From: Lactococcus garvieae subsp. garvieae
GTDB taxonomy: Bacteria; Bacillota; Bacilli; Lactobacillales; Streptococcaceae
Assembly: GCF_029024465.1 (NCBI RefSeq)
Contig: NZ_CP118950.1
Span: forward strand, 682,001 to 746,000
Length of the DNA: 64,000 bases
Direction: 5' to 3'
This document shows positions 41,643 to 51,294 of the stretch, piece after piece (the stretch's first letter is position 1; every line of letters starts with the position of its first letter). Below the pieces are notes generated by a model, which saw only the letters and a program-made list of their open reading frames with translations, made no database searches and was not told the DNA's origin. A program made the translations under genes and the position numbers.

Positions 41643-43155
41643 TGATATTACCTCCGACCATGAGAATTCCGAGTTCTTGTTTGCTTGTCGTTTCAGGACT
41701 GACAATTCCTTGAATTTGTCCATCGTGAATAACAGCAATACGGTCCGAAACATTCAGAATTTCATCTAATTCAAAAGATACAACGAGCACAGCTTTTCCT
41801 TCATCACGTGCTTGAATCAAGCGTTTGTGGATATATTCAATCGCACCGACATCAAGCCCACGTGTGGGTTGAGCAACAATGAGCAAGTCAGGATTACGAT
41901 CGACTTCACGCGCAATAACCGCTTTTTGTTGGTTCCCACCTGAAAGGGATTTGAAAGGAATTTGTTCACTGGCACCGCGGACATCAAATTCTTCCATGAG
42001 TTCGCGAGCTTTAGCATTGATTTTATTGTAGTCCAAGAAACCGTACTTACTTAGTGGCGCCTTATAGTAAGTTTGAAGCGCAATATTTTCAGCAACAGTC
42101 ATTTCGAGTACGGCACCGTCACGGTGACGGTCCTCTGGAACGTGCCCCACAGAGTCTTCGATAATCTTACGAGGCTTGTGAGTGGTGATGTCTTTACCTT
42201 TGAGTTTAACAGAACCAGAATCGATTTTCATCAAACCAGTGATCGCCTTAATCAATTCTGTTTGACCATTGCCATCAATACCAGCAAGACCGACAATCTC
42301 ACCAGCACGCACATCTAAAGAGAGACCTTTTACAGCGAAGGAACCACGTTTTTCTTTAACCGAAATATTATCAATACAGAGCACAACGTCCTGTGGTTGA
42401 GCAGCTTCTTTTTCCGTTTTGAAGGATACGGAACGCCCCACCATCATTTCAGCCAGTTCTTTATTGGACTTATCTCCCAGTTCGACCGTTTCAATAGAAA
42501 CACCTCGGCGAATAACAGTAATACGATCGGCTACCGCACGAATTTCATCGAGCTTGTGGGTAATAAGAATAATGGACTTGCCTTCTTTAACCAAGTTGCG
42601 CATGATTTCCATGAGCTCAGTGATTTCAGAGGGAGTCAGCACAGCTGTAGGTTCATCAAAAATTAAGATATCTGCTCCACGATAAAGTGTCTTTAAAATC
42701 TCGACACGTTGCTGCTGTCCAACAGAGATATCGCGAACAAGTGCATCGGGTTCGACAGAAAGTCCATAACGTTTTGACAATTCCACGATTTTATTTCGAG
42801 CTGTTTTAAGGTCAAGGCTTAAGCCTTTCGTCACTTCACTTCCGAGCATGATATTTTCAGTAACAGTAAAGGCATCAATCAGCATGAAATGCTGGTGAAC
42901 CATACCGATACCAAGCTGAGAAGCTTTTGTTGGAGAGTCTATTTGCTCGAGTTTGCCGTTAACATGAATCTCACCTTCTGTTGGTTCCAGAAGACCAGAG
43001 AGCATGTTCATCAGAGTTGATTTACCGGCACCATTTTCACCGAGCAAGGCGTGAATTTCACCTTTTTTCAGCTCCAAGTTGATCTTGTCGTTTGCGACAA
43101 AGTCACCAAACTTTTTGGTAACGTTGATCATTTGGATAACATTTTCGTTGGCCAT
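41626..43155 (-). CDS. nupA: Nucleoside ABC transporter ATP-binding protein NupA
   Basis: 509 residues with two ABC domains in tandem. First domain: Walker A GENGAGKSTLM near 36, signature ISVGQQQRVEI near 140, Walker B ILIFDEPTAVLTP. Second domain at about 255-500: LSGGNQQKAVIAREV near 400 and a degenerate Walker B region (LLIVAQPTRGLDV). This is the sugar/nucleoside importer type. The substrate-binding lipoprotein BmpA is not encoded next to it. Start has GAAGGAGCC. Confidence 0.9.
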   Translation of the reverse strand: MANENVIQMINVTKKFGDFVANDKINLELKKGEIHALLGENGAGKSTLMNMLSGLLEPTEGEIHVNGKLEQIDSPTKASQLGIGMVHQHFMLIDAFTVTENIMLGSEVTKGLSLDLKTARNKIVELSKRYGLSVEPDALVRDISVGQQQRVEILKTLYRGADILIFDEPTAVLTPSEITELMEIMRNLVKEGKSIILITHKLDEIRAVADRITVIRRGVSIETVELGDKSNKELAEMMVGRSVSFKTEKEAAQPQDVVLCIDNISVKEKRGSFAVKGLSLDVRAGEIVGLAGIDGNGQTELIKAITGLMKIDSGSVKLKGKDITTHKPRKIIEDSVGHVPEDRHRDGAVLEMTVAENIALQTYYKAPLSKYGFLDYNKINAKARELMEEFDVRGASEQIPFKSLSGGNQQKAVIAREVDRNPDLLIVAQPTRGLDVGAIEYIHKRLIQARDEGKAVLVVSFELDEILNVSDRIAVIHDGQIQGIVSPETTSKQELGILMVGGNINEQQN

Positions 43156-48273: not shown

Positions 48274-49201
48274 AAATTTATTTAAACATTTATTGGAATC
48301 ACTGAAAAATCTCCGTCGTAACGGATGGATGACTGTAGCAGCAGTTTCATCTGTAATGATTACTTTGACCTTAGTCGGACTATTTCTCTCAGTTATTTTA
48401 AATACGGCGAAATTGTCAAGTGATATTGAAAAAAATGTACGTATCGTTGCATATATGGATTTGAATGTTCATGATATGGACAAGAAAATTGAAGATCCAA
48501 AAAATCCTAAGAAAGAAATCGATAATCCAAACTATCGTAAAATTTATTCAGAAATTGAAAAAATTTCGGATGTGGCTTCGATTAAGTTCTCAAGTAAAGA
48601 TGAACAGCTTAAGCAATTGACAGAGACATTGGGGAGCACTTGGGCGCTTTTCCAAGGTGATGCTAACCCGCTCTACGATGCTTATATCGTTGAAGCAGAT
48701 AACCCACAGGATGTGGAGAAAGTTGCCAGTGCGATCAAGAAGATTGATGGTATCCAATCTGCAAACTATGGGGGTGCCAATACAGAACGTATCCTTGCTT
48801 TAGGGAATAACGTGAAGATTTGGGGTGGTGCAGCAGCAGCTCTGCTTATCTTAGTTGCAATCTTCCTCATCTCAAACACAATTCGTATCACTATCATGTC
48901 ACGTCAACGTGAGATTCAGATTATGCGATTGGTGGGAGCACGTAATGGTTACATTCGTTGGCCATTCTTCCTGGAAGGCGCTTGGGTTGGACTCTTGGGA
49001 GCCATTGTTCCAAGTGTATTGATTGCTTGGCTTTACAACCTTGCTTTCACAAGCTTCACACCAAGCTTGAAACCACAAAGTCTGTATCTGCTTCCAGCAG
49101 ACAGCTTTGTACCAATGATGGTTGGCTTACTCTTCCTTATCGGTATATTGATCGGTTCACTCGGAGCAGTAACTTCAATGCGTCGTTTCTTGAAAGTTTA
49201 A
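48266..49201 (+). CDS. ftsX: Cell-division membrane protein FtsX
   Basis: 311 residues with four transmembrane helices at about 22-42, 190-212, 240-262 and 280-302. A large extracellular loop at about 45-180 is where streptococcal FtsX contacts PcsB. The RQREIQIMRLVGARNGYIRWPF region near 215 is typical. ATG 48266 lies inside the end of ftsE after GGAAGGAGA. Confidence 0.92.
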   Translation: MIRNLFKHLLESLKNLRRNGWMTVAAVSSVMITLTLVGLFLSVILNTAKLSSDIEKNVRIVAYMDLNVHDMDKKIEDPKNPKKEIDNPNYRKIYSEIEKISDVASIKFSSKDEQLKQLTETLGSTWALFQGDANPLYDAYIVEADNPQDVEKVASAIKKIDGIQSANYGGANTERILALGNNVKIWGGAAAALLILVAIFLISNTIRITIMSRQREIQIMRLVGARNGYIRWPFFLEGAWVGLLGAIVPSVLIAWLYNLAFTSFTPSLKPQSLYLLPADSFVPMMVGLLFLIGILIGSLGAVTSMRRFLKV

Positions 49202-49207
49202 AAAAAC

Positions 49208-49239
49208 AAAAAGTCTTGCTAAGAAGCAGGACTTTTTTT
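49208..49239 (+). terminator. Terminator after ftsX
   Basis: AAAAAGTCTTGCT and AGCAGGACTTTTT arms with an AAGA loop. Confidence 0.9.
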
Positions 49240-49322
49240 GTTGCTCAAGTAACCCTGGCTCTGAAGACTCTGAGCGGAGAAAAGAAGCAGTGCCCGGATT
49301 GGAGAGTGCCTCTGATATTATT

Positions 49323-49372
49323 TTGAAAATCATAAGAAAAACATTACAATAATATTATATAAATGTTATTGT
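49323..49372 (+). promoter_or_regulatory. Promoter and inverted repeat before the AGCAC-repeat leader
   Basis: TTGAAA (49323-49328), 16 bases, TACAAT (49345-49350). An inverted repeat ACAATAA (49346-49352)/TTATTGT (49366-49372) overlaps the -10 and the expected transcription start, as a repressor site would. The promoter reads toward the leader ORF at 49414. Confidence 0.5.
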
Positions 49373-49413
49373 TGTTACTTGATGATAACAAAAGACTTGA
49401 TGAGGGACATGCT

Positions 49414-49512
49414 ATGACTTATAATCAGACAGCACAGCACAGCACAGCACAGCACAGCACAGCACAGCACAGCACAGCACAGCACAGCACAGCACAGCAC
49501 AGCATGTGGTAA
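49414..49512 (+). CDS. Leader ORF running into AGCAC repeats
   Basis: 32 codons: MTYNQ, five copies of TAQHS from the repeat, then MW and TAA. GAGGGA lies 6 bases before the ATG, a good ribosome binding site. As the repeat unit is 5 bp, each gain or loss changes the exit frame. Fourteen repeats (here) end at 49512. Thirteen would end at the TAG at 49515-49517. Twelve or fifteen would enter the third frame, open to TAA at 49634-49636, giving a 70- or 75-residue product that crosses the terminator and the next start codon. A role as a regulatory leader peptide is inferred. Confidence 0.55.
   Translation: MTYNQTAQHSTAQHSTAQHSTAQHSTAQHSMW
49431..49504 (+). repeat. Pentanucleotide tandem repeat (AGCAC)14
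   Basis: Fourteen perfect AGCAC units at 49431-49500 and a partial AGCA. Perfect short arrays of this size are prone to slipped-strand mispairing, as the CTCTT arrays in neisserial opa genes. Repeat number may be wrong in short-read assemblies. Confidence 0.97.
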
Positions 49513-49543
49513 GGTAGACAACCGCACATTTTTACTTGCACCC

Positions 49544-49573
49544 AAACGCTCGGGACCCCTTGGAGCGTTTTTT
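49544..49573 (+). terminator. Terminator between the repeat leader and the secreted-protein gene
   Basis: AAACGCTC (49544-49551) and GAGCGTTT (49563-49570), 11-base loop, six T. It points toward the downstream gene, so transcripts from the leader promoter must pass it. Confidence 0.8.
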
Positions 49574-49613
49574 GGCATTTACATTTATCTATCTATAGAA
49601 ATGAGGAAAACAT

Positions 49614-51254
49614 ATGACACCAGAAAAGAAACGTAAACTACGGAACATCGCACTCCTCTCCTTGCTTGGCTTAATCGGCGGGCCTTTCGCCTTCACAGCC
49701 TTCACAGCCTTCAACCAACAGGCCCTCAATGACCGAGAAAACAATATCCAAGTCGAAGTCGGCGGCCGTGTGCACGACTACTACAATAGAGACACGGAAA
49801 ACAAGGATGTCTTTGTGGAAAACTACGGCGAGCAACCGATCATGGCCCGTATCCGCTTGTCCGAATATTTGGAAACTCAACAAACAGGAGCTGCAGCTCC
49901 GACACCACTGGTTGCGGGGACAGAAAGAGAGCAACTCAACACATGGACCCCTTATATCCCCAGTGCGACAGCGATCGGAATGCGTACAGGAACGGGCGCT
50001 GCCTTTAACCGCTATTCCAACCTGAGCTTTGGGTGGAGTCGAGAGGGGCAATCTGCCCCTTGGTATCTCCCCACCTTTAACCATAACAACCTGGACTTAA
50101 GTACTGCCGCAGCGGGACATGCCCGTGACTTGGCCGATGGTTTAGAGGAGCTGACCCATCCTGGTGACGGTACAGATGCTTACTGGACGGAAGGGGTGAC
50201 GTATACCAATGGTGCTAATGGCACCACCTGGCATGGCGCCCCAGATGGTGCAGAGCGTACCACAGCGCAAAACCTCCAGCAAGAACGCGCCCCACTAACC
50301 ATGGCGCAGTGGTTTGACTTGCCCAATAATCAAAAAATCGGCGATTTCTGGGTTATCGATCACCACACAGGCTGGGCTTACTGGGCCTCTATGCTAGAGC
50401 CAGAAGCAGCCACATCCTACTTGCTGGACGCGGCTGAGATGACCAATGCTATCCAAGAGACGGTCTTCAACGGTACTTATTATTACGGTATCCATGTGGA
50501 TAGCCAACTGCTCAGCCCAGACAATAGCGAGGATTTCATCAATGATGGGGAAATCCATGATCCTAACCTGGATTATTTCCTTGAAGGCTTTAAAAATAAC
50601 GCTGTGGATGATGAGCCTGGAAACCCTGACGATGAGTCTGGAAACCCTGCCTATAATGAAGACAGTGCCCCTTCAGCATTTAACTTCCATCTGATGAACC
50701 CCGGGCGTATCTTTACCATGGCGGGCGAGCAATACCGTTATCTTGAAGACATGGGCAACGGCAATCATATGATTATCCGAAACGATGCCCTCCGTAGTTT
50801 GTCTTGGGATGCGCAAGAAGGTGTACTCACTTCTTGGTATGGCCAACTTGAGCCTGCAGTCCAAGCTATGGTTCAGCCTGTAGCCAACAGCTTTACGACA
50901 GGTGAAGTTGCGGATGCTTCAGTTACCTTTACAGGTGGCACGAGATGGATTCCTGATAATTTAGAGGGAGCCGTTGCGGCAGACCAGACTCAAGTGCTTC
51001 CCGGCGGAACGGCGAGAGCTTTTGCCCTTTCTCTTGCGGATATCACACGCTTATCGGGCCCAGGCTTAGGCTTCCCTAACCATGCACAGCGAGGTTCCGC
51101 TGCACTAGGCTGGTGGTGGCTACGTACTCCTACACCTGGTACGAATGCTTGGATTGTAACTACCCAAGGTGAGGTTCTTGGCGTTCAACCTCGTTCGAGT
51201 GGCAGTTCCAATGGAGGAATTCGTCCAGCCTTAATCATCAACCCAACCAACTAA
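49614..51254 (+). CDS. Secreted protein with DUF6273-like C-terminal domain
   Basis: 546 residues. Basic start and hydrophobic signal-type helix at about 12-32 (IALLSLLGLIGGPFAFTAF), then VHDYYNRDTENKDVFVENYG near 53, a motif of Firmicutes surface proteins. The middle is acidic with a short Asp/Glu/Pro/Asn repeat near 335-350. The C-terminus at about 440-546 (SLADITRLSG, GWWWLRTP, GGIRPALIIN) resembles DUF6273, a C-type-lectin-like fold. No LPXTG or other anchor. Function unknown; an adhesin or surface lectin is a guess. Base and codon use are visibly richer in G+C than the neighbours, suggesting transfer. Site GAGGAAA precedes the ATG. Confidence 0.75.
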   Translation: MTPEKKRKLRNIALLSLLGLIGGPFAFTAFTAFNQQALNDRENNIQVEVGGRVHDYYNRDTENKDVFVENYGEQPIMARIRLSEYLETQQTGAAAPTPLVAGTEREQLNTWTPYIPSATAIGMRTGTGAAFNRYSNLSFGWSREGQSAPWYLPTFNHNNLDLSTAAAGHARDLADGLEELTHPGDGTDAYWTEGVTYTNGANGTTWHGAPDGAERTTAQNLQQERAPLTMAQWFDLPNNQKIGDFWVIDHHTGWAYWASMLEPEAATSYLLDAAEMTNAIQETVFNGTYYYGIHVDSQLLSPDNSEDFINDGEIHDPNLDYFLEGFKNNAVDDEPGNPDDESGNPAYNEDSAPSAFNFHLMNPGRIFTMAGEQYRYLEDMGNGNHMIIRNDALRSLSWDAQEGVLTSWYGQLEPAVQAMVQPVANSFTTGEVADASVTFTGGTRWIPDNLEGAVAADQTQVLPGGTARAFALSLADITRLSGPGLGFPNHAQRGSAALGWWWLRTPTPGTNAWIVTTQGEVLGVQPRSSGSSNGGIRPALIINPTN

Positions 51255-51257
51255 ACC

Positions 51258-51294
51258 AAAAAAAGATTAGGAAAACATATTCCTAATCTTTTTG
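51258..51294. terminator. Bidirectional terminator between secreted-protein gene and nrdF
   Basis: AAAAAGATTAGGAA and TTCCTAATCTTTTT arms with a 6-base loop. Confidence 0.92.

Follow-up and report, generated by a model that had tools for sequence, protein, structure and literature searches.

A pentanucleotide array in a leader reading frame of Lactococcus garvieae has the features of a phase-variable transcription attenuator and recurs at eleven loci of the genome

In the genome of Lactococcus garvieae subsp. garvieae (NZ_CP118950.1; 2.09 Mb), a locus between ftsX and nrdF carries a gene for a secreted protein that is preceded by fourteen perfect AGCAC repeats. The question raised by this locus was whether the number of repeats could decide whether the gene is expressed. 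The window was the whole stretch of 64,000 nucleotides that was analysed (positions 682,001 to 746,000 of the forward strand), and the features of the locus are given in its coordinates (Table 1). A sequence-only reading of the window had described promoter-like elements, a leader ATG with a ribosome-binding site, the fourteen repeats, a terminator and the gene start. All of these were recovered: the repeats and both start codons by the repeat finder and from the sequence, the promoter-like elements as two pairs by a promoter scan, and the terminator by our own script and by folding. Tandem Repeats Finder reported the array at 49429-49504 (period 5, 15.2 copies, 100% matches, score 152), the top one of four rows for the window. 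The terminator did not appear in the list of a simple scan; its loop has 11 nt and the limit of that scan was 8. Three features absent from the earlier description were a weaker hairpin between the array and the terminator, the multicopy nature of the system, and the overlap of the second promoter-like pair, P2, with the leader Shine-Dalgarno (SD) sequence and ATG. A search of Rfam with 49200-49700 returned 14 matches up to an E-value of 10, none of them at the gathering score.

Table 1. Features of the array locus in window coordinates
Feature	Position	Strand	Remarks and source
P1, putative leader promoter TTGAAA-16-TACAAT	49323..49350	+	-10 ends 63 nt before the leader ATG; promoter scan
P2, promoter-like TTGATG-17-TATAAT	49397..49425	+	overlaps leader SD and ATG; -10 ends 5 nt before the array
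Leader Shine-Dalgarno GAGGG	49402..49406	+	sequence
Leader ORF at 14 units, 32 aa	49414..49512	+	ATG at 49414, stop at 49510-49512; open to 49636 at 12 or 15 units
(AGCAC)14 array, perfect units	49431..49500	+	Tandem Repeats Finder and unit count
Hairpin 1 and T run	49505..49533	+	stem 49505-49510/49521-49526; holds the stops of both closed frames
Hairpin 2, predicted intrinsic terminator, T6 tail	about 49544..49573	+	own terminator script and folding
Secreted-protein gene, 546 aa	49614..51254	+	ORF and profile/structure matches
Terminator-like hairpin, both directions	51260..51293		3' of the secreted-protein gene; terminator scan

The array lies within the leader ORF, which has its own SD and ATG, and outside the gene that would be switched. 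Computation of the frames showed that the number of units sets whether the leader stop falls before the terminator or at or after it: the stop ends at 49512 with 14 units, at 49517 with 13 units and at 49636 with 12 or 15 units, exactly as the sequence-only reading had it. The secreted-protein gene has an SD and ATG of its own, and the open leader frame is not the frame of this gene.

From this layout the following switch may be proposed. Transcription from P1 would yield a leader mRNA, on which ribosomes would initiate at ATG 49414 and translate through the AGCAC array. Slippage during replication would presumably shift the number of units in steps of 5 nt and, with it, the exit frame of the ribosomes. 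Two of the three frames would make them stop inside hairpin 1; hairpin 2 would then form, leaving the gene OFF except for leak. The third frame would carry them into and through hairpin 2, which then could not form, and RNA polymerase would enter the gene, giving the ON state. With its 14 units, this isolate would be in the OFF state. That the locus is a phase-variable transcription attenuator of the type known from the pil1 locus of Streptococcus gallolyticus appears highly probable from its sequence and from analogy.

The hairpins were examined by folding. Hairpin 2 (-11.1 kcal/mol, z -1.56) was modestly better than shuffled sequences, 12 of 200 of which were as good, and hairpin 1 alone had -5.6 kcal/mol and a z of -1.10. 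The 75-nt post-array stretch of the window folded no better than shuffles (z -0.27), and the terminator fold was stronger in relatives (z -4.07 at L031). When the terminator stem was compared across 17 loci, two-sided changes were found at three of its six pairs (in 1, 3 and 2 loci), and the outermost pair was lost in three loci of genome G008. MAFFT misplaced the 3' arm in L064, L098 and L117, and the stems were paired by a script that takes the best-pairing 3' arm and so leans towards pairing. Loci with identical flanks were removed (L043 is a twin of L042), and L043 was included in the final frame count. The terminator script left out arrays with less than 120 nt or with runs of N downstream. 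Hairpin 1 was found by our script at some loci only, and not at, for example, L029, L033, L104 and most of the G008 leaders.

A promoter between the terminator and the gene was considered as well, since a pair TTGGCA-16-TATAGA is legible by eye just after the terminator. This candidate was ruled out: it would leave no room for the SD of the gene, and at the similar locus L104 a 9-nt insertion, read by eye, breaks the pair. A promoter scan demanding T at the last base of the -10 element does not list it. L104 itself was rejected as an orthologous locus, its flanks not matching ftsX/nrdF, and is merely a similar copy.

Whether the open frame of the leader is maintained as a coding sequence was studied in the leaders of the gene family to which the secreted-protein gene belongs. 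In the genome of this isolate, a single exit frame stayed open across the terminator in eight of the nine family leaders, and the closed frames of these eight stopped 7-17 nt after the array; the ninth (L033) had two open frames. Two open frames were also found at L040, L041, L104, L137 and other loci, which counts against the switch model. Because the layout with one open frame was weak against shuffles at single loci (0.30-0.49 at each of 12 loci), it was not used as proof. The open frame of the family leaders encodes the peptide AVDxRLFLLAPKRSG or a relative of it, as seen in 24 chosen post-array segments, of which 23 passed a text filter and one (L049) failed it but fits by eye; this set leaves out the leaders of L. 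petauri and of the defence operons described below. In 20 unique rows of about 24 codons, with the terminator included, pN/pS was 0.48 in the open frame versus 1.10 and 1.00 in the other two, a contrast between frames and not an independent sample, the rows being related. Gaps ahead of the terminator were 3 nt long in the codon alignment by construction, and they were also 3 nt long in a plain DNA alignment of 19 sequences. The conserved peptide was present in none of 11 other leaders (seven of L. petauri with arrays, L040, L041, L137 and L091), and therefore the coding argument is limited to one lineage, with the layout alone applying elsewhere.

Past the 5' arm of the terminator the frame is free, and it shifts within the terminator between groups of loci. 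Distances from the terminator to the gene fall in all residues modulo 3 (9, 4 and 4 of 17). From these two observations, the endpoint under selection looks to be the terminator and not the gene. At five loci (L054, L055, L064, L098 and L109), the stop of the open frame lies within the terminator loop, and a ribosome ending there should still block the 5' arm.

The window locus is not the only one of its kind. The genome contains 11 such arrays, of 14-54 units, and the module of leader, array and terminator recurs at all of them; because of this recurrence, the module is more than a chance arrangement. The 108 forward and 156 reverse genome matches of a 20-nt repeat probe were fully accounted for by these 11 arrays. 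Nine of them precede members of the family of the window gene (n = 14, 18, 20, 24, 25, 30, 31, 40 and 54), and the other two precede likely phage-defence operons. One of these two (L040/L118, n = 14; L118:445-8002) lies before a Type I-like restriction-methyltransferase with SIR2 and HerA, and the other (L041, n = 27; L041:1769-5133) before a Type II methyltransferase, a ThsB-like TIR protein and a Type II restriction enzyme. Judged by sequence, the frame was stopped at all nine array-bearing family members and at L041 and was open at L040. If each family copy has one ON frame in three, the chance of finding all nine in a stop frame is 0.01-0.03, which counts a little against the switch model.

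Array length was found to change faster than the flanks. The paralogous twins L034 and L035 carry 20 and 54 units, respectively, yet they are 99.9% identical over 900 nt downstream. Upstream of the array, BLAST finds just 37 identical nt between them, as if they had recombined at the leader. The reading frames of four of the nine array-bearing family members (L034, L035, L036 and L037) are broken, and the breaks are shared by the twin copies. In a further family copy, L032 (gene at 42857), the leader is the same, but a decayed non-repetitive stretch replaces the array. Its frame from the ATG reads MTYNQHNTPQHTTTVEDRLFQLAPQRSKPRAFFRS, with the stop past both hairpins; by its sequence, L032 would have the appearance expected of a fixed ON copy.

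The position of P2 raises another reading of the locus, in which P2 is the working promoter. RNA made from P2, if P2 fires, would start in the array and therefore could not carry the leader ATG; the hairpins would then always terminate, and the product would be a short repeat RNA, or the array would tune the output of P2. The -10 element of a P2-type pair ends 2-7 nt short of the array (0-8 allowed), and the spacer of the pair encloses the leader SD and ATG. Such a pair scored at least 9 of 12 at 17 of 18 arrays and at least 10 at 13 of them, versus 6 and 0 of 251 mechanically chosen SD-ATG starts. The 18 arrays included one window-type representative of the family, and some came from pattern searches requiring TTGAY or TATAAT; among 13 arrays found without asking for a -35 or -10 element, 12 scored at least 9 and nine at least 10. 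The next two bins upstream reached at most 8, and bins farther away sometimes reached 9-10. Shuffles at single loci gave values of 0 to 0.25, with L134 as the failure, and L184 and L190 are near twins. P1 is present too: a pair of its type, with a 16-nt spacer and 50-66 nt before the ATG, was seen at 21 of 28 leaders scanned (an uncontrolled count; L034 and L075 gave no row), so that, by sequence, two promoters compete at the window locus. A P2-driven locus would leave unexplained the coding signature of the open frame, the open-locked relic L032 and the SD and ATG found at 23 of 24 arrays, eight of which came from a search requiring them; in the cited parts of the pil1 report, moreover, the start site was mapped to a position upstream of the repeats (PMC3894217). 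We therefore regard this reading as improbable.

Two other explanations keep the leader but change its role. If translational coupling were the main switch, an open leader frame would bring ribosomes to the gene start, and the terminator would be secondary. At 4 of 17 loci the open frame does close on the ATG of the gene (TATGA), at L036 it continues in frame into the gene, and our script found no terminator at the L. petauri loci L070, L071, L073, L075 and L077; in the remaining 12 loci, however, the distance from stop to ATG ranges from -65 to +20 and is not conserved. Coupling as the main switch is thus very unlikely, and reinitiation on the gene, which the sequence-only reading had made part of the design, was not borne out as a conserved element. 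The locus could also be a decaying relic, a repeat before a silent gene at which switching has been lost. The four broken genes and the nine stopped frames would fit this, but the window gene has an intact frame of 546 aa, the arrays are perfect and long, and the open frame is constrained, so a relic is hardly credible. Phase-variable attenuation by a frame-dependent leader, as the sequence-only reading had proposed, is favoured by the pil1 precedent, by the constraint on the open frame up to the 5' arm of the terminator and by the open-locked decayed copy, evidence that comes from sequence and analogy.

If the attenuator is accepted, it may be speculated that P2 tunes the instability of the array. 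P2, the leader SD and ATG, and the AGCAC or AGAGC array could form an interlocked, portable cassette with the array at about the +1 position of P2. Firing of P2 might open the DNA there and set the rate of slippage, promoter strength thereby tuning the switching, and one genome could in this way switch nine lectin-like surface family members and two defence operons independently. This proposal is tentative, and we consider it rather doubtful.

The protein encoded at the window locus was characterized by profile and structure searches. Its N-terminal part is similar to the SipW-dependent BsaA family (TIGR04090; 29.2 bits, under the curated cut-off of 60), and the BsaA profile matched all 11 aligned family members at an E-value of 0.001 or better (best 3.1e-9). 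At its C-terminus, DUF6273 (PF19789) matched residues 498-543 with 24.3 bits, above the gathering score of 23.5. Across the 11 aligned homologues, residues of about 500-546 in the DUF6273 region contain a variable stretch before an invariant RPALI. The predicted structure had a mean pLDDT of 63.6 and was better at about residues 351-430 and 451-546 (block means 67-94). Residues 355-546 of the model aligned with the start of the Thomasclavelia ramosa IgA peptidase (VIA-align; Z 11.6, 163 aligned residues, rmsd 2.9), a match to be taken with caution given the modest pLDDT. Weak matches of the model, possibly due to chance, were to C-type-lectin-like folds such as the phage tropism determinant Mtd (Z 4.9-5.2), which we take to share one fold class. 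Foldseek gave no match at an E-value of 0.001. The N-terminal domain of the T. ramosa peptidase is termed DUF6273 by its authors in the cited part of their report (PMC12402451). The secreted protein is likely a surface adhesin.

Distribution in relatives was also studied. A search of 58 genomes located the protein family in 6, the present one included (G003 being marginal, E 8.9e-4), all within one genus of 28. Family members of G008, L. petauri, L. formosensis, L. garvieae and L. ileimucosae also carry this leader upstream. In G008, eight of the nine loci L042-L050 have an array leader, and L044 has lost both array and ATG; of the eight frames, two stop early, one stops just before the terminator and five run through. 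(AGCAC)6 was present in 7 of 395 Lactobacillales genomes, including this one, and the reversed control in none; the genome scans covered 395, 335 and 332 genomes. Similar leaders precede other genes in streptococci and in Ruminococcus and Dorea MAGs. L087 (a Ruminococcus MAG) and L091 (Streptococcus saliviloxodontae) have SD, ATG, array, hairpins and an unrelated gene in identical order; our script found two terminator-like hairpins at L091 and no terminator at L087, where the hairpins were seen by eye alone. Matches of the pure repeat in IMG/VR (13 stretches) were set aside, their flanks reading mostly like unrelated repetitive DNA. Six L. formosensis contigs (L082, L085, L093, L094, L096 and L103) end inside or beside arrays, so that the draft assembly breaks at these switches. 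At L070 of L. petauri, the SD of the gene is seemingly hidden in a hairpin, as judged by eye.

Homopolymer tracts in promoter spacers are another known kind of phase variation. In G014 and G017, a run of 6-15 T lies inside the promoter spacer in 17 of 20 fetched family copies, with resulting spacers of 10-19. These tracts, at L053, L056-L063, L065-L069 and L079-L081, lie upstream of the gene. They are probably a second kind of phase switch, serving the same gene family in two congeners, and no such tract is present at the window locus.

The attenuator is thus very probably the correct mechanism, in an unusually large deployment of a known kind. The design itself is known; what is new is the scale, with 11 arrays in one genome, nine before family members and two before defence operons. 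A mechanism proven for the pili of one pathogen is thereby suggested as a recurrent module of a secreted-protein family and of restriction/SIR2-HerA and TIR operons, and eleven separate switches per genome would yield many combinations of surface and defence states. Because a state can be predicted for each locus from its array sequence, the model is testable from long reads and RNA data. The promoter embedded beside nearly every array examined is an unexplained regularity and could be relevant to the control of repeat instability.

Several known systems resemble this one. In Opa-type phase variation, pentamers lie within the genes of a multigene surface-protein family. Pentamers and a multigene family are common to both cases, but the Opa array is in the gene and the present one in a separate leader ORF. 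Among the matches listed in literature searches, titles and abstract openings mentioned no such switch in Lactococcus and none with an AGCAC unit. The words gallolyticus, attenuation, terminator and leader peptide are all absent from a 2025 review of phase variation. In Streptococcus suis modS, according to the cited part of the report, western blot showed the frame to depend on a GAGCA array that follows the start codon (PMC8125046). The pentamer array near a start codon and the dependence on frame are shared with the present locus, but the modS array lies inside the gene itself, with no terminator step (PMC8125046).

The closest counterpart is pil1 of S. gallolyticus, for which a phase-variable attenuator with GCAGA repeats in a leader ORF has been proven (Danne et al. 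2014, PMC3894217); the design, which the sequence-only reading had set apart from that of the opa genes, is thus not new. In the cited parts of that report, expression was low at 22 (+3n) units, with the leader stop 39 or 49 bp before the terminator, and high at 21 or 23 units. Mutation of the ATG or ribosome-binding site gave low, homogeneous expression, deletion of the terminator locked it high, and a mutant with three stops showed a single peak that was, unexpectedly, a little higher than the low state; the system also functioned in L. lactis (PMC3894217). As described there, pil1/pil3 share with the present locus a pentanucleotide array in a leader ORF with SD and ATG, a terminator between leader and gene, and a leader stop set by the number of units (PMC3894217). 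The pil1 promoter upstream of the leader has a candidate counterpart here in P1, with which P2 competes. Compared with that published description, the unit is GCAGA in pil1 and AGCAC here, and the one hairpin described for pil1 is matched here by a terminator with a second hairpin before it. The pil1 attenuator controls pili (PMC3894217), whereas the arrays of L. garvieae, as known from sequence, precede a multicopy secreted-protein family and defence operons.
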